Below, piece after piece: positions 26,453 through 53,756 of a DNA stretch of 64,000 nucleotides. Position 1 is the stretch's first letter. Every line of letters starts with the position of its first letter. The stretch is from the NCBI GenBank assembly GCA_024710005.1, contig JANJVQ010000018.1:1-64000 (forward strand), written 5' to 3'. The DNA is from Paludibacter sp. (GTDB taxonomy: Bacteria > Bacteroidota > Bacteroidia > Bacteroidales > Paludibacteraceae). The notes under the pieces were generated by a model. That model was not told the DNA's origin. It saw nothing but the letters and a program-made list of their open reading frames with translations, and did no database searches. Made by a program: the position numbers and the translations under genes.

Positions 26453-26695
26453 TTAAGCTTTTGGTCTGGCTTCTTTAACTACCATGGTACGACCGTCCAG
26501 GTCAGCTCCGTTCAGTTCTGCAATAGCTTTTTCGCCACCTGCATCATCCATTTCCACGAAAGCAAAACCTTTTGATTTGTTGGTTTCACGGTCTTTGATG
26601 ATTTTGCATGATTGTACCTGACCGTATTCGGCCATAACCCCTTGCAGGTCATTTTCACGGACTCTGTAACTTAAGTTACCTACATAAATGTTCAT
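26453..26695 (-). CDS. RRM-type RNA-binding protein
   Basis: 80 residues, a single RNA recognition motif. RNP2 is IYVGNLSY (residues 3-10) and RNP1 is KGFAFVEM (about 42-49), both with the aromatic residues that stack on RNA. Such short RRM proteins are abundant in Bacteroidetes, where they bind single-stranded RNA and may replace cold-shock or Hfq-like functions. Monocistronic: a terminator follows and a long (219-base) AT-rich leader precedes it, which could carry temperature-dependent control. Confidence 0.93.
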   Translation of the reverse strand: MNIYVGNLSYRVRENDLQGVMAEYGQVQSCKIIKDRETNKSKGFAFVEMDDAGGEKAIAELNGADLDGRTMVVKEARPKA

Positions 26696-35521: not shown

Positions 35522-35558
35522 AAGTTTTAATTTTGAGGGGGCAAAGATAGTTATTTTA

Positions 35559-35586
35559 GCGAATAGCGAATAGCGAATAGTGAATA
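35559..35586. repeat. GCGAATA-type repeat, copy 4
   Basis: Three perfect tandem GCGAATA heptamers followed by GTGAATA, located between the EamA gene and the dioxygenase gene. Confidence 0.75.
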
Positions 35587-36577: not shown

Positions 36578-37651
36578 TTAGAGTTTTAGAATTTCAACTA
36601 ATTCTATGTTTATGTATAAAGTTTCACGTCCAATTTTCAGTGATTTCAGAACCCCAATTCGTTCAAGTTCTCTTAAATAACGTGACGCAGCTTTTCTTTC
36701 AACCTGAAGTGTATTCACTACAAAGTCAATTTTTGAATATGGTTGTTCGAATAACAATTCAACCAATTCTTTTCGATAGATTTTTGGTGCAAGCTGTTGA
36801 ACTTTTTCTATTGTTGAATCCAACGATTTTCTGATTGTGCTTATCTTCTCAATAGTTCGAATTGCAGTCTTTTCAATCGCATTCAATATAAAAAGTATCC
36901 ATTCTTCCCATTCACCAGTCGTGTTCGTTCGATTAAGCAATCTGTAGTATTCGGCTTTGTTTTCAATGATATACGAACTCAGATAAAGAATTGGAATGTC
37001 AATCAATTTATTCATAATCAAATAAAGTATATTGAGGATTCTTCCTGTTCTTCCGTTTCCATCATAAAACGGGTGAATACTTTCAAACTGATAATGATAT
37101 ACTGCTAAATTTATTAGCGGAGACAAACTTTGGTCTGTGTCGTTAAAGTAATTAATGAAATTTGTCAAAAGGTCAATAATTTCAATCTCGTCTTGTGGAG
37201 GAGTGTATACAACTTCTCCTGTATTACTGTTTTTCAAGACAGTTCCCGGCACATTTCTTATTCCAGCGGAATTTCCAACAAGTACTTGTTGAATGCTTTT
37301 TATGTCGTTAACACTCAAAAATCCCTGTTTCTCAACCAAGTCAAAACCAAGAAAAATTGCTTTTCGATAATTCACCACTTCTTTTGTCGCAGCGGTAATG
37401 TTTGATTTGTCAATTGCAATTGCTTTGTAAAGTTCGTCTTGGGTAGTAATTATATTCTCAATTTCCGAACTGTCTTTCGCTTCCTGAAGCACAATTGCAT
37501 TCACAAGCATTAGTTGATTCGGAATAGTTTTCGCTATTCCTTTTAATTCAGCCAAGGCTGTTGCGGCTTTAGCTGTCTGTCTAAGAATCCTAATCGTTTC
37601 AACTTTTTCTGTCTGCGGTGGTAACTTTTCAAGCTTATAATCTGGTGTCAT
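36578..37651 (-). CDS. Fic-domain protein (probable AMPylase)
   Basis: 357 residues from the ATG at 37651; a GTG at 37660 is the alternative. The Fic core HPFYDGNGRTGRILN (about residue 194) has the catalytic His, phosphate-binding GNGR and second Arg, so it should be active. The N-terminal helix holds SSEIEN, matching the inhibitory (S/T)xxxE(G/N) motif that blocks ATP binding (class II). A C-terminal winged-helix-like segment (ELVELLFEQPYSKIDFVVNTLQVERKAASRYL) may bind DNA. Visibly AT-richer than its neighbours, suggesting transfer. Likely self-inhibited target modifier; partner unknown. Confidence 0.9.
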   Translation of the reverse strand: MTPDYKLEKLPPQTEKVETIRILRQTAKAATALAELKGIAKTIPNQLMLVNAIVLQEAKDSSEIENIITTQDELYKAIAIDKSNITAATKEVVNYRKAIFLGFDLVEKQGFLSVNDIKSIQQVLVGNSAGIRNVPGTVLKNSNTGEVVYTPPQDEIEIIDLLTNFINYFNDTDQSLSPLINLAVYHYQFESIHPFYDGNGRTGRILNILYLIMNKLIDIPILYLSSYIIENKAEYYRLLNRTNTTGEWEEWILFILNAIEKTAIRTIEKISTIRKSLDSTIEKVQQLAPKIYRKELVELLFEQPYSKIDFVVNTLQVERKAASRYLRELERIGVLKSLKIGRETLYINIELVEILKL

Positions 37652-37910
37652 TTGTCCCACATTTATTTAATTCGTCCCAAAAGTACAAAATATGGTACAT
37701 ATACCAATCTTTTTTTCTTTATTTTTTTGCATGCCAATAACATCACACCATCTAAATACATAATATACTTCTTGTCGTTTTTCAGGTATACAATGCGATT
37801 CCCTCAAAAACCACCTAAAATCTTTTCACTTGCATTTCAATAAAAAACCATTCCGCTCATTATCGATTAGATTCTCCAACAAACTCAACTGAATTTTTTC
37901 TATGCAAACT

Positions 37911-37990
37911 TAAAAATAAATTTCGATAAATTTAACATGCGGCAGCAATTTTCTTTCATTTCTAATCACTTAGCTGAATAATAGCTACAT
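37911..37990. repeat. Conserved 80-bp block, copy A of a paired intergenic element
   Basis: This block aligns with 52366-52445, sharing ATAAATTTAAC, ATTTTCTTTCATTT and TAATCACTTA in the same order and spacing. It precedes the 22-nt repeat array at 38073. The rest of the 615-base gap between the Fic gene and the T9SS gene shows no convincing ORF. Confidence 0.7.
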
Positions 37991-38072
37991 GAAGAAGTAT
38001 AATATACTGATAAAGTGGTGGTTCTATTTCAGTTAATGGCGTTGAATGCAATATCAGTACCTGGCTGAAGAC

Positions 38073-38194
38073 AGATGGGCATCTATCTCAAATTAGATGG
38101 GCATCTATCGTCAACGAGATGGGCATCTAATGACAACAAGATGGGCATCTATTGTCAGCGAGATGGGCATCTAACTTAAATTAGATGCCCATCT
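38073..38194. repeat. 22-nt-period array of AGATGGGCATCT dyads (six units)
   Basis: The core AGATGGGCATCT starts at 38073, 38095, 38117, 38139 and 38161, each exactly 22 nt apart. A sixth core at 38183 is its reverse complement (AGATGCCCATCT), again in phase. Spacers are 9-10 nt and vary. Each core is a 4-bp dyad around GGGC. Units five and six make a perfect 13-bp stem with an 8-nt loop (38161-38194). Confidence 0.93.
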
Positions 38195-38195
38195 A

Positions 38196-38235
38196 TAAAA
38201 ACCCGGTCGGCTTACCCAAAAAAAACCGACCGGGT
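38196..38235 (-). terminator. Terminator of the T9SS gene at 38276
   Basis: On the minus strand ACCCGGTCGG pairs with CCGACCGGGT (10 bp, 15-nt loop) followed by TTTT. It resembles the terminator of the HU-like gene at 52771-52808 in sequence (shared CGGCTTA element). Confidence 0.85.
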
Positions 38236-38275
38236 CAAATCTTTATAGTCAGGTTTTCAGATATTTACAAGTAAT

Positions 38276-43232: not shown

Positions 43233-43396
43233 AACCACAAAAGGCACAAAAGGAAGACTAAGGAATCACAAAAGAACTAATAGCGAATAGTGAATAGCGA
43301 ATAGCGAATAACGGAAGTGATGCCCCCCTCTATTAATTCTTAATTTATAATTTTTAATTTTCACTTTTGTGTTTCCTTAGTCTTCCTTTTGTGGTT
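43233..43396. repeat. AACCACAAAAGG inverted repeat with GCGAATA core, copy 2
   Basis: The left arm starts AACCACAAAAGGCACAAAAG (43233) and continues GAAGACTAAGGAATCACAAAAG to 43274. The right arm (43364-43396) is its inverse, lacking one GCACAAAAG unit and with one mismatch. The interior holds five GCGAATA/GTGAATA units (43281-43314) and a T-rich tract. It fills the GH38-GH125 gap. Confidence 0.85.
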
Positions 43397-50289: not shown

Positions 50290-52005
50290 CTAGCCTTTGT
50301 TCCAACTACTTTCTATTTCGTTGCTCATTTCATTACATTTACTTGAATTTTTAAATAGTGTACCTAAAATACTCTCTGGATATTTTTCAATTAAGAACGT
50401 ATTTATTTGTTCAATTATTTCTTTTACTGTTTTACTCATTAAGACTTTATCAATTTCAAAATCAATTTTATTCATTTCAGATTTGAGTCTTAATTTCAAT
50501 ACAGTTAACAAAGCTATCATTCTATTACCATGAACTAAGATTCCATATTTTCGTCCACTCTTTCTATCTAGCTTCTCTATTTCCGAAAGAATAATCTGAT
50601 CCACTTCTCTCGCAATTTTTACTGAATTGTAAACGAAATAACCACTTACAGATGGATTAAATATTTCTTTATAGATTCCTTTTTCAAGATTTTCGAAAAA
50701 TTTACCAATACCGCCTTTTGCTTGAACAGCTAAAGAAGTTTTTCCGCTAATACATGCTAATGATGTAGTTGCTTCAATCAAATCAAAAGATTTTTCTGAG
50801 TATTTAAAATTTTCGGATCTCATGATATTATAGTCAATAGAATCAATCATGAGCTCAGTTTTAATTCTAACTTGTTCGGGATCTTGTGAAACGAAATCTC
50901 TGTTTTCAATTCTATTTTGTCGATTATTTGTTCTAGTGACTTCTTTGTCAAAATTTTCAGGTGTTTCAGAGAGTTGTATCATTCTAATTGTGACTTTTAC
51001 ATTATCTAATTTGTCAGCATTTTCTACACATTGACCAAATCGACCAATTGAGCTAACAGTCTGAGCACCATTAACAATTGCTGTGTTAGTCAGTTTGAAT
51101 GCGCCTAAATCTCTCGAGCCACCACCAACGATTGATTTGTCAATTTTATCGGCTATGATTGTAATTCCATTATTATAATACCAAAATAAATCAGGATTCT
51201 CGCTTAAAGTTTTCTCAATCTCTACATTAACATCTGTCTTACCTAAAACTTGTCTTATATTTTTTTCAAACAATCTTGTGTTGTAATTTTTCCACCACTC
51301 AACAATTTCTTTACCAGCAACCATACCATAATATGCTTTGTATGGTTCAGAAACTACTCCCCAGTTTATTAAACCCAATTCTAAATCAATCGGTTCATTA
51401 CCTGCACTCAGAGCTAAGGAGGAGTGAACTTTGCTTTGATTTAGACGAACGAAAGTAACTAGTTTTTCGGCATTTTCATCACCTGTATTATTCATTTCAT
51501 TTAGTAAATCTTCTAATATCCTTGTCGAATGCACAGCAAGAACTTGACTAATACATGTATCTATGAATATTAAACTATATCTTGTATCGTACTCTCCAAG
51601 AGCCTTTTCTATGTCAATTTGTTGCTTTTTTACTTTATAGTTAAATCGATCAAAATTAAGGTTAAAAAGATCACGTATTCCATTACAGAACTTTGCTACG
51701 CCAGCACTTTCTGGCTCACCAGTTCCATCTTTACTCCATTTTGATTGGACAATTATCATCCTTCTATGAACGGGTGAATAATATATTGCATCAATACCAT
51801 TGTCATCACCTCCATCTACAATTGAATTTGCAGCTTCTTCAATTGAACATTCAATTGTATTATATACTGCATAAGCAGCAAGACATCTAGTTATTATTTT
51901 GTCATCTTTATGAATGTCATTCACGCCAATGTCTGAAAGATCAAGTTTGTCTTTGAAGAGATCTGATATTTTGCTTGAAATTTGATTAATGTGTATTACG
52001 CTCAT
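50290..52005 (-). CDS. AIPR-family protein (abortive phage infection)
   Basis: 571 residues. The N-terminal segment GGDDNGIDAIYYSP..RRMIIVQSKW has the D-x(n)-QxK spacing of a PD-(D/E)xK nuclease-like core. The AIPR signature follows: TRLFEKNIRQVLG, NPDLFWYYNNGITIIAD, and LTNTAIVNGAQTVSSI (about 340), the hallmark region of PF10592. AIPR proteins are linked to phage resistance in Lactococcus and occur in defence islands; the mechanism is unresolved. It is AT-rich and flanked by attC-like sequences, so it looks like a mobile defence gene. No toxin or methylase partner is adjacent. Confidence 0.86.
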   Translation of the reverse strand: MSVIHINQISSKISDLFKDKLDLSDIGVNDIHKDDKIITRCLAAYAVYNTIECSIEEAANSIVDGGDDNGIDAIYYSPVHRRMIIVQSKWSKDGTGEPESAGVAKFCNGIRDLFNLNFDRFNYKVKKQQIDIEKALGEYDTRYSLIFIDTCISQVLAVHSTRILEDLLNEMNNTGDENAEKLVTFVRLNQSKVHSSLALSAGNEPIDLELGLINWGVVSEPYKAYYGMVAGKEIVEWWKNYNTRLFEKNIRQVLGKTDVNVEIEKTLSENPDLFWYYNNGITIIADKIDKSIVGGGSRDLGAFKLTNTAIVNGAQTVSSIGRFGQCVENADKLDNVKVTIRMIQLSETPENFDKEVTRTNNRQNRIENRDFVSQDPEQVRIKTELMIDSIDYNIMRSENFKYSEKSFDLIEATTSLACISGKTSLAVQAKGGIGKFFENLEKGIYKEIFNPSVSGYFVYNSVKIAREVDQIILSEIEKLDRKSGRKYGILVHGNRMIALLTVLKLRLKSEMNKIDFEIDKVLMSKTVKEIIEQINTFLIEKYPESILGTLFKNSSKCNEMSNEIESSWNKG

Positions 52006-52093: not shown

Positions 52094-52365
52094 CCCAAAT
52101 ATGAATAATTCATTTTCCTTCGTCTCCAACTCACCACTCATATCCCCACTTTATCATCAGTTCTAATTCATTAACATATACGACAATAAGAAACCTCATC
52201 AAGTATAATTAATACACATATTCAAAATCAAACTCCCTACTCTTTTCTCTAAAATCACCTACGATCCACAACGAAACGCACAACCCAAGAGAAAGTACAT
52301 GTTGCGCGTGTCAGTATCAGACAATCCGGTTAACATTTCATCCGTAGCATTTTCAGATTACAAAG

Positions 52366-52445
52366 CTAAAAATATTTTTTAATAAATTTAACTCACACCT
52401 GCTATTTTCTTTCATTTTTAATCACTTACCTGCATATTAGCCAAA
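52366..52445. repeat. Conserved 80-bp block, copy B of the paired intergenic element
   Basis: It aligns with 37911-37990 (ATAAATTTAAC, TATTTTCTTTCATTT, TAATCACTTA). A 20-codon minus-strand reading frame (52415-52353) also exists at the other copy, but the differences between copies are not biased to silent positions. The rest of the 827-base gap (52006-52832) carries GGCAGG/CCTGCC hairpins and the array, with no credible gene. Confidence 0.7.
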
Positions 52446-52626
52446 TAAAAATGTATTATATCCCGCTACAAGGGCAGGTTTTATCACAATTATTAGCAGT
52501 AGTAAAAACAATTTAACCCTGCCAAACAAAAACAATTAGGATTATTTAAACATCAGGAAATTTTGTCAGGTCATGACAACCTGCCAAAAATGGCAGATGG
52601 TAGGATTTGGAGCCGTTGCAGGCAAA

Positions 52627-52767
52627 ACAGGACTTGCGTTCGGCGAGAACAGTACCTTGCTGAAGAGAGAACAGGACTTTGCTGAAGACAGATGGGCAAC
52701 TGGTTCATTCGAGTTGGGCAACTCACGTCAACAAGTTGGGCAACTCGCATCGATAAGATGGGCAAGC
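52627..52767. repeat. 22-nt-period array, second locus (AGTTGGGCAACT dyads)
   Basis: Cores start at 52690 (AGATGGGCAACT), 52712 and 52734 (AGTTGGGCAACT) and 52756 (AGATGGGCAAGC), all 22 nt apart. The same period continues leftward with a different motif: ACAGGACTTGC, ACAGTACCTTGC and ACAGGACTTTGC at 52627, 52649 and 52671. It has the same position relative to a GC-rich terminator as the array at 38 kb. Confidence 0.88.
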
Positions 52768-52770
52768 AAC

Positions 52771-52808
52771 AAAAAACCGGGCGGCTTATCGAGGTAAGCC
52801 GCCCGGTT
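52771..52808 (-). terminator. Terminator of the HU-like gene
   Basis: Minus strand: AACCGGGCGGCTTA pairs perfectly with TAAGCCGCCCGGTT (14 bp, 6-nt loop), followed by six T. It is immediately adjacent to the 22-nt array. Confidence 0.92.
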
Positions 52809-52832: not shown

Positions 52833-53228
52833 TTATTTGCTCAGTGTACTGGCCTGTCGGAATTCAACTTTGGCAACCGATTCCTTCAGTTCCTTGCCGG
52901 GAGAGAACCGGATGTTGACTTTTCTGACTTTCGTAGCACTTACATCCGCTTCGGTTTCGCTGCCTTCAGCACTCAGGGTAAGGTGAAATGATCCCCAGTC
53001 GCCCAGCTGGATGGACTGCCCGTTGTGCAGTGCCCGAATCATAATCTTGTGTAACTGTGAAAGCGCCATCTCGGCTTCTTTCGGGTTCAGCGTGGTTTCG
53101 TCAGCTATCTGACGGGCCACGTCTTTTTCTTTGAGCATGCCGGTGTTACGAAGTGCCGGATACCATTTGGGAGTTGCGGTAGGGTCGGAAGGATTCTTCC
53201 GTTGCACCTTGTTATAAAAAACAGCCAT
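52833..53228 (-). CDS. HU-family (HU-related) DNA-binding protein
   Basis: 131 residues from the ATG at 53228; a longer frame from 53270 is less likely. The N-terminal lead AVFYNKVQRKNPSDPTATPKWYPAL is typical of the Bacteroidetes HU-related subfamily. The HU fold follows: KDVARQIADETTLNPKEAEMALSQLHKIM and QLGDWGSFHLTLSAEG. VRKVNIRFSPGKELKESVAKVEF replaces the canonical DNA-binding beta-arm. It probably bends DNA as a nucleoid or site-specific architectural protein. It has its own terminator and lies next to the 22-nt array. Confidence 0.9.
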   Translation of the reverse strand: MAVFYNKVQRKNPSDPTATPKWYPALRNTGMLKEKDVARQIADETTLNPKEAEMALSQLHKIMIRALHNGQSIQLGDWGSFHLTLSAEGSETEADVSATKVRKVNIRFSPGKELKESVAKVEFRQASTLSK

Positions 53229-53393: not shown

Positions 53394-53723
53394 GGGGTTG
53401 CTTCGCTACGCTCGCAATGACGAGGTTGCTTCGTCGTTCACTTTGTGAACTCCTCGCAATGACGGTACGTTGATTGGGGGCATATATACGTCGCTCGAGC
53501 GTTTTGCTAACTTAACGAGTGATTTGCAGCGACGGGTTCGAGGAACAATAGCGCCCGTCGTGCAAAAAAATGATGAGTTGTGCAAATTTGGTCGACGGGT
53601 ATTTAATATAATGCAACTGTCCCGTCATTGCGAGTCGGCGAAGCCGACGAAGCAACCCCCCATAAATCGCACACATATATTGTCCCTTCATTGCGAGGTT
53701 GCGAAGCCAACGAAGCAACCCCC
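53394..53723. repeat. Cluster of four CGTCATTGCGAG dispersed repeats
   Basis: Two copies on the minus strand (53394-53422 and 53422-53463, reading CGTCATTGCGAG..GAAGCAACC) face two on the plus strand (53623-53660 and 53688-53723). CGTCATTGCGAG..CGAAGCAA repeats are widely dispersed in Bacteroidetes and other genomes. The central part (53470-53620) contains a CGACGGG/CCCGTCG inverted pair. No gene is supported in this 618-base spacer. Confidence 0.85.
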
Positions 53724-53756
53724 GATAAGTTGTGATCGCGGTTGTGATGCGGATAC

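Follow-up and report, generated by a model that had tools for sequence, protein, structure and literature searches.

Tandem DNA sites that are bound by the protein of an adjacent gene include iterons and the parS/ParB centromere arrays. REPs, for their part, surround the gene for RAYT, a Y1 tyrosine transposase. The IHF and HU proteins, which fall in the same superfamily as the HU-HIG proteins considered here, are to our knowledge not associated with private tandem palindromes; IHF is sequence-specific, and HU is usually taken as a non-specific packer of DNA. Canonical HU is a plain protein of ~90 amino acids without the N-terminal HIG extension. For the HU-HIG proteins, a role against genome invaders was reportedly proposed by Burroughs and colleagues in 2017, and we know of no tested function for the expansion of this family in Bacteroidota.

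The nearest described repeat, as far as the available part of its description goes, is BrickBuilt of Porphyromonas gingivalis, a minisatellite-MITE with small inverted-repeat ends that is present in 19 copies in one strain (PMC4596501). It is made up of intergenic 23-nt tandem repeats with a leader and a tail, and one copy, BrickBuilt_14, adjoins the gene of a PF00216 DNA-binding protein (PMC4596501). The arrays reported here are likewise intergenic tandem repeats, of 21-23 nt, with a leader, a likeness drawn from the description and not from the brick sequence, but BrickBuilt has MITE ends and the available part of that source describes no cognate protein. Cognate repeat arrays for HU-HIG proteins are not described in the open literature searched, a scope outside which most subscription papers fall, and the available part of PMC11035120 merely names one HU-HIG protein in a table.

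In the window, by which we mean the whole stretch of 64,000 nucleotides of Paludibacter sp. DNA that was analysed, an array of this kind adjoins an HU-HIG gene. Like the REPs around RAYT, HU-HIG arrays are palindromes private to one flanked gene, with dispersed relatives; RAYT, however, is a transposase, whereas here the protein is HU-like, the phase is 21-23 bp and the remote copies are few. Iterons and parS differ in being bound by another protein class, and here many different sets are found per genome.

Window arrays and their copies

A 22-nt array lies beside the HU-like gene, as the original prediction had it, with seven units in a single register at 52624-52767 (Table 1). Its further observations, that the period runs leftward into another motif and that both window arrays adjoin terminators with shared sequence, also hold: three AAAACAGGACTT-type units are in register with the four GGGC dyad units, and CGGCTTA is common to the terminator-like hairpins of both arrays. 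The AAAACAGGACTT type is the make-up of the array behind a related HU-HIG gene in a relative (L029 in G027). With at most one mismatch, GATGGGCATC has 12 matches in the window, compared with a shuffle mean of 3.6 and none of 100 shuffles reaching 12. Taken alone, GTTGGGCAAC is weak (8 window matches, shuffle mean 4.0, 6 shuffles reaching 8), so that the array stands above chance because its units keep register.

Table 1. Positions of the arrays and neighbouring features in the window
Feature	Position	Strand	Remarks
SoFic-like Fic gene	36578..37660	-	start faces the 38-kb leader and array; PADLOC SoFic 374.4 bits
Leader of the 38-kb array	37905..38035	-	homologous to ~52.36-52.49 kb
Paralogous (38-kb) array	38073..38194		five AGATGGGCATCT and one AGATGCCCATCT, exactly 22 apart; without HU-HIG gene beside
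Terminator-like hairpin	~38198..38236		at the right-hand edge of the 38-kb array; follows the 38276-39193 gene
AIPR/AbiU-like gene	50290..52005	-	behind the leader; candidate regulated gene; PF10592 113.2 bits, PADLOC AbiU 122.5 bits
Conserved leader	52330..52620	-	common to element copies
AAAACAGGACTT-type units, three	52624..52689		each + 10 nt, middle one AGAACAGTACCT; register same as GGGC units
Unit 1, aaaacaggactt + 10 nt	52624
Unit 2, agaacagtacct + 10 nt	52646
Unit 3, agaacaggactt + 10 nt	52668
GGGC dyad units, four	52690..52767		AGATGGGCAACT, AGTTGGGCAACT, AGTTGGGCAACT, AGATGGGCAAGC; starts 52690, 52712, 52734, 52756
Unit 4, agatgggcaact + 10 nt	52690
Unit 5, agttgggcaact + 10 nt	52712
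Unit 6, agttgggcaact + 10 nt	52734
Unit 7, agatgggcaagc	52756
Terminator-like hairpin	52775..52808		AACCGGGCGGCTTA-N6-TAAGCCGCCCGGTT; between the array and the HU-HIG stop codon
HU-HIG gene (PF18291)	52833..53228	-	131 aa; proposed cognate binder; 85.7 bits, cut-off 26.2

The profile match that assigns the adjacent protein to HU-HIG is near full length (positions 1-124 of 125), and its PDB sequence matches are to IHF/HU chains (best E 4.9e-05). PF00216 also matches the protein at 41.4 bits; a canonical HU of this type was ruled out by the N-terminal HIG extension. The genome holds four near-full-length HU-HIG matches of at least 85 bits. Upstream of the gene, at 53400-53740, dispersed TCATTGCGAG..CGAAGCAACCCC repeats can be made out by eye. 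On the other side of the array, a putative promoter resembling TANNTTTG (minus strand, 52368-52361) faces the AbiU-like gene. Elsewhere in the window, 7-bp TAGCGAA/AATAGCG tandem repeats are found at 35557-35586 and 43279-43310.

Because 131 bp of their left flanks are 74% identical, the 52-kb and 38-kb arrays are paralogous elements. Two further arrays are present in the same genome, one at C25:134 kb, which lies beside a second HU-like paralog and has a hairpin similar to that at 52775-52808, and one at C6:52.7 kb, and the same-genus relatives G027 and G029 also hold copies of the element. The unit at the end of the array is inverted at 38183, at C25:134 kb, in L177 and in L316, and would form a long hairpin with its neighbour. 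In L041 (G027:C102) the array directly follows a gene that looks, on inspection by eye, like that of a rifampin ADP-ribosyltransferase.

The gene beyond the leader was scanned in six leader copies with Pfam and PADLOC, and in four it is of a defence type: AbiU/AIPR (50290-52005), SoFic (36578-37660), a Thoeris-like TIR protein (L029), and an HKD+Snf2 protein behind a small HTH gene (L036). The gene beyond the leader of the C25 copy and that of L030 gave no Pfam or PADLOC match. In L043:1501-2465 (G027:C138) the leader precedes a PF14848/DUF4469 HU-like gene in place of the array. With four defence types set beside two unmatched copies and this variant, control of defence genes by these elements is a suggestion and not a rule.

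Distribution of the motif and pairing in its dyad

The paired pattern TGGGCANCT-N10-AGNTGGGCANCT occurs at 57 loci in genome contigs, almost all of them from Bacteroidales; those titled otherwise are three from Nocardioides stalactiti, one from Cytophagales and one from a Bacteroidetes bacterium. There was no match to the pattern in viral contigs. In members of Phocaeicola and Bacteroides the array is again directly behind an HU-like gene. A profile search placed an HU-HIG-like ORF within 500 bp at 8 of the 57 loci (one of them weak, 24 bits) and found any such ORF at 9, counts that apply to a set in which 22 arrays are within 600 bp of the end of the sequence stretch examined.

One Paraprevotella genome carries exact paired units in at least 13 clusters, and more with one mismatch. 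No full HU-HIG was found in it, only four weak PF18291 matches, the best at 34 bits. It is possible, though improbable, that the arrays are bound by some other protein and that HU-HIG genes co-accumulate with them in the same variable regions, as the Paraprevotella arrays and the similar pattern at the three N. stalactiti loci might indicate. Such a binder is hard to reconcile with private motifs that co-diverge with the HU-HIG sequence and with the rarity of arrays at other ORFs of the same regions, both described below. Paraprevotella loci L061, L068, L073, L081, L085 and others have AGWTGGGCAWCT arrays of about three units in which the halves vary independently, some of them just behind rho-independent-looking terminators. 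In N. stalactiti, outside Bacteroidota, AGGTGGGCAACT units occur every 22 bp (L067, L069 and L097).

The original prediction read the core at 52690-52767 as AGTTGGGCAACT and saw in it a paired change that keeps the palindrome. That reading is true only of the units at 52712 and 52734, so two of the four GGGC units are compensated; the outer two, at 52690 (AGATGGGCAACT) and 52756 (AGATGGGCAAGC), have an uncompensated A/A at pair 3-10. Across three arrays of the genome, with the C6 array outside the count, 13 of 16 units pair at this position. In 58 arrays from 29 genomes, pair 3-10 is complementary in 198 of 252 units, as against 121.6 expected with independent halves; these are counts and not probabilities, since units and related genomes are non-independent. 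Position 3-10 was left free in the search pattern, T/A, A/T and C/G were counted as pairs, and the identical contigs L107/L041 and L053/L038 entered the tally once each. The other pairs of the dyad are nearly invariant or without covariation, with 37 C/A mismatches at pair 4-9 among the 252 units, and overall covariation is confined to one of six pairs. At 3-10 there is none in Paraprevotella (14 of 34 units paired, 16.3 expected), and 0 of 14 Nocardioides units pair. Covariation across related genomes, which had been anticipated, is therefore seen in the tally as a whole but not in these two genera, and the uncompensated halves that would have spoken against it occur in both of them and in half of the GGGC units of the 52-kb array. 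Taken together, the pairs without covariation, the mismatches at 4-9 and the Paraprevotella and Nocardioides units make a DNA half-site that tolerates A or T a better fit to the pattern at 3-10 than a stem.

The same choice arises from folding. If transcribed, the array might form tandem hairpins acting as an sRNA, a protein sponge or tandem terminators. On either strand the 38-kb array is more stable than its shuffles (z -6.1 and -9.3), as any row of palindromes has to be, and the 52-kb array gives just -2.3 and -1.9. By itself a 12-nt unit does not fold, although one of 16 nt reaches -3.8 kcal/mol once flanking bases are included, and in many dyads the pairing runs right through the centre, so that no loop remains. 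Read from the opposite strand, the C/A mismatches of pair 4-9 would become G-U, and 9 of 67 unit consensuses from HU-HIG loci are terminator-like (A-run/GC/T-run), 7 of the 9 being downstream of the gene. Set against this, the units read either GGG or CCC with respect to the HU-HIG strand (L226, L231), and the placing of arrays varies: some precede promoter-like sites, some lie within leaders and others are found past a terminator-like hairpin. No Rfam family matches the window at gathering score, and the best sub-threshold hit at the array region is 18.3 bits. The weak folding of units, the modest z of the 52-kb array and the variable positions of TANNTTTG/A sites (see below) make an RNA function less likely, and we regard it as very unlikely; the RNA stem offered originally as an alternative to a binding site draws weak support at best.

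Several more specific identities were considered. An sRNA of the FopS/RbpB type was set aside; the word "tandem" is absent from the main text of PMC11697453. The window does encode, at 26453-26695, an 80-aa RRM protein (PF00076) of the same kind as Bacteroides RbpB. A CsrB-like sponge was set aside as the 12-nt units do not fold, an integron attC-like reading of GTTRRRY in AGTTGGGC, made by eye, was also set aside, and so were Tn7-type transposon-end arrays, as both window arrays are direct and not inverted.

Phased arrays beside HU-HIG genes

Arrays were sought in 40 regions, mostly of ~14 kb, around full-length HU-HIG genes from the Paludibacter genome and six genomes of an even order-wide draw, in which 7 of 60 genomes had a full-length HU-HIG gene among the matches listed. 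The regions represent 40 of ~61 full-length genes (>60 bits, counted by eye), most of the others being close to the end of a contig or next to a gene already chosen. TRF arrays with a period of 20-24 accompany 25 of the 40 HU-HIG genes at a distance of no more than 500 bp; the remainder of these regions holds ten such arrays, from which 1.1 would be expected near the genes. When the 80 flanks were scanned by lag, runs of at least 15 appeared at lag 22 in 20 flanks and at lag 21 in 8, with 1-3 at other lags. The motifs at these loci are mutually unrelated and many are palindromic, for example AGCTGTCAGCTGACAGCT, CACTTTAGTACTAAAGTG, ACGGGGCGCCCCGT, TTTCAAACCGTGAAA and TAGCATATATATGCTA-like units. 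A phylum-wide draw had an array at 5 of 11 HU-HIG loci, one of them a pyrimidine run.

Two expansion genomes, G062 and G063, chosen for their AGTTGGGCAACT arrays, contributed 20 HU-HIG genes each out of 38 and 32 matches. Runs of at least 17 are present at 28 of these 40 loci, with lag 22 in 23 loci, lag 23 in 5, lag 24 in 3 and other lags in 0-2, and the motifs are mostly distinct and common to near paralogs (AGATGTACATCT, GACACTTNTGCTAAGTGTC, AAAGGTGTTTAACACCTTT, GTTAACTACGACAGTTAAC). When the sets are combined, after removal of eleven duplicate loci and one protein identical to another, 67 of 106 unique HU-HIG proteins have an array and the run statistic detects none at the other 39. The period is 22 in 50 of the 67, 21 in 9 and 23 in 8; 42 arrays are upstream of the HU-HIG gene and 25 downstream. 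Across Bacteroidota, most examined HU-HIG genes adjoin their own short, often palindromic repeats ~22 apart, and the claim that the period outlives the motif is borne out by loci that keep 21-23 bp with unrelated motifs.

By the same statistic, arrays accompany 27 of the 40 HU-HIG genes in the first set of regions versus 9 of 209 other ORFs (at least 100 aa, at a distance of >1.5 kb from HU-HIG; a flank may be common to two neighbouring ORFs). HU differs from HU-HIG in this respect, with none of 40 canonical HU loci having a run of at least 17 at lags 21-23; TRF reports arrays of period 23-24 near 2 of 22 canonical HU genes. In a pooled test that allows a central gap, 28 of 67 unit consensuses contain a perfect 6-pair dyad (null mean 2.65, maximum 8). 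An earlier per-array test was weak, with p<=0.05 in 9 of 45; it omitted five loci duplicated under other ids and five canonical HU loci, and scored any run >300 (masked N in L195) as lacking an array. A neutral minisatellite expansion would account for some unit drift within arrays, but hardly for a period confined to 21-23, dyads that are kept and adjacency to one gene family, and we give it almost no credence.

Relative to the start codon, the median upstream array extends from -165 to -64. No promoter position constant relative to these arrays was found: a TANNTTTG/A site may precede an upstream array, fall within it or follow it, and in 17 of the 42 none was found.

Private motifs, remote arrays and a proposed cognate protein

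At HU-HIG loci the sites co-diverge with the protein, with a Mantel r of 0.294 between protein and motif similarity and a null maximum of 0.079 in 1000 permutations. A motif similarity of at least 0.7 is reached by 12 of 23 protein pairs at 70% identity or more versus 9 of 2188 pairs below, which makes the motif mostly private beyond close paralogs. The window subfamily seems to have kept its address, as the window protein and an HU-HIG of an uncultured Phocaeicola (L226) both have AGTTGCCCAACT at 44% identity.

Changes of motif between close relatives point to where specificity might reside. Four G058 paralogs that are ~88-92% identical keep period 21 and array position and differ in motif. 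Among them, L187 and L188 have similar TTTCA...GAAA motifs and a shared segment, KPMASRELVEFRGN, in a C-terminal wHTH-like tail, while L186 and L189 differ in both the segment and the motif; the comparison covers four proteins that differ elsewhere too, with the tail recognised by eye. The KPMASRELVEFRGN segment looks like a wHTH recognition helix. Short HU-HIGs are without this tail and hence without that candidate motif reader. L249 and L251 are 97% identical and have unlike repeats, and sliding-window partial correlations between protein segment and motif are weak, peaking at 0.12 within the N-terminal extension and reaching 0.10 close to the domain end.

Some motifs recur away from their gene. 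The window motif is found at two HU-HIG loci and in two arrays without HU-HIG. The motif of the C35 locus recurs at C22:78224-78325 and C17:70573-70654 (22 bp), that of C36 (23 bp) at C13:66061-66144 with spacings of 23, 22 and 23, and in G063 AGATGTACATCT is present in an HU-HIG array on C29 and in six units on C11 (22 bp). AGGTATATACCT had no remote copy in G063 and occurs only at its own HU-HIG gene. For each of the five motifs examined, 0-2 remote arrays per genome were found, which keep the motif and nearly the period. The five remote arrays viewed are all close to a gene 3' end and not clearly at promoters: one is between convergent recA and 2Fe-2S thioredoxin-like genes, one between two codirectional ORFs, and others are behind T9SS-tailed, sulfatase and histidine-kinase genes.

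Positions near 3' ends such as these are also what would be left by REP-like selfish repeats that spread between intergenic 3' ends, with HU-HIG as a dispersal or maintenance factor or a mere neighbour. The many Paraprevotella arrays without a full HU-HIG and the inverted end unit of some arrays would suit such repeats as well. Their spread would, however, have to stop at 0-2 remote arrays per genome for each of five motifs, hold a tight period of 21-23 bp and leave upstream arrays at the median position given above; moreover, we know of no transposase activity in HU-HIG. We consider this origin unlikely.

The reading we favour as probable is that the adjacent HU-HIG protein is site-specific and has the array as its cognate DNA element, with a phased filament that would form there in cis and at a few sites in trans. 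An HU-HIG dimer would recognise a palindrome of ~12-18 bp, and some 3-9 units spaced 21-23 bp apart, or two helical turns, would line the dimers up along a single face of the helix, where they could assemble into a short nucleoprotein filament. If each paralog group has its own motif, the arrays would serve as private addresses. Binding in cis might tether the protein or autoregulate the HU-HIG gene, with the protein filling its own array first and remote arrays second. The remote arrays, here those at 38 kb and on contig C6, would then make up a small set of trans targets, and in the window the AbiU-like and SoFic genes are the likely ones. That HU-HIG binds the array, forms a filament and regulates genes, and in which direction, we infer from sequence. 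Selection on the dyad as a binding site, the central proposal of the original prediction, gains support from both the HU-HIG loci and the pairing across genomes. What speaks against the cognate reading is that 39 of the 106 proteins have no array by the run statistic, that a Paraprevotella genome has arrays but no full HU-HIG, that few of the 57 motif loci are near an HU-HIG-like ORF, that L249 and L251 have unlike repeats, that AGGTATATACCT has no remote copy, that remote arrays are near gene 3' ends and that promoter positions vary.

Proteins with cognate tandem sites are a known kind, and what would be new here is their appearance in an unexpected family. We put forward, as a tentative extension, that Bacteroidota may carry up to dozens of orthogonal HU-HIG/array pairs, forming a modular, self-addressed layer of chromatin that would differ from classical, non-specific HU and have the control of defence genes as one of its uses. 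If this is true, the family would conserve the two-turn phase as its code and use the motif as a private address. How HU-like folds gain sequence specificity would become directly testable, and many protein/site pairs that may be orthogonal would be available. It could also account for some of the 22-23-nt intergenic repeats of Bacteroidota, and would suggest a role for the expansion of HU-HIG in this phylum.
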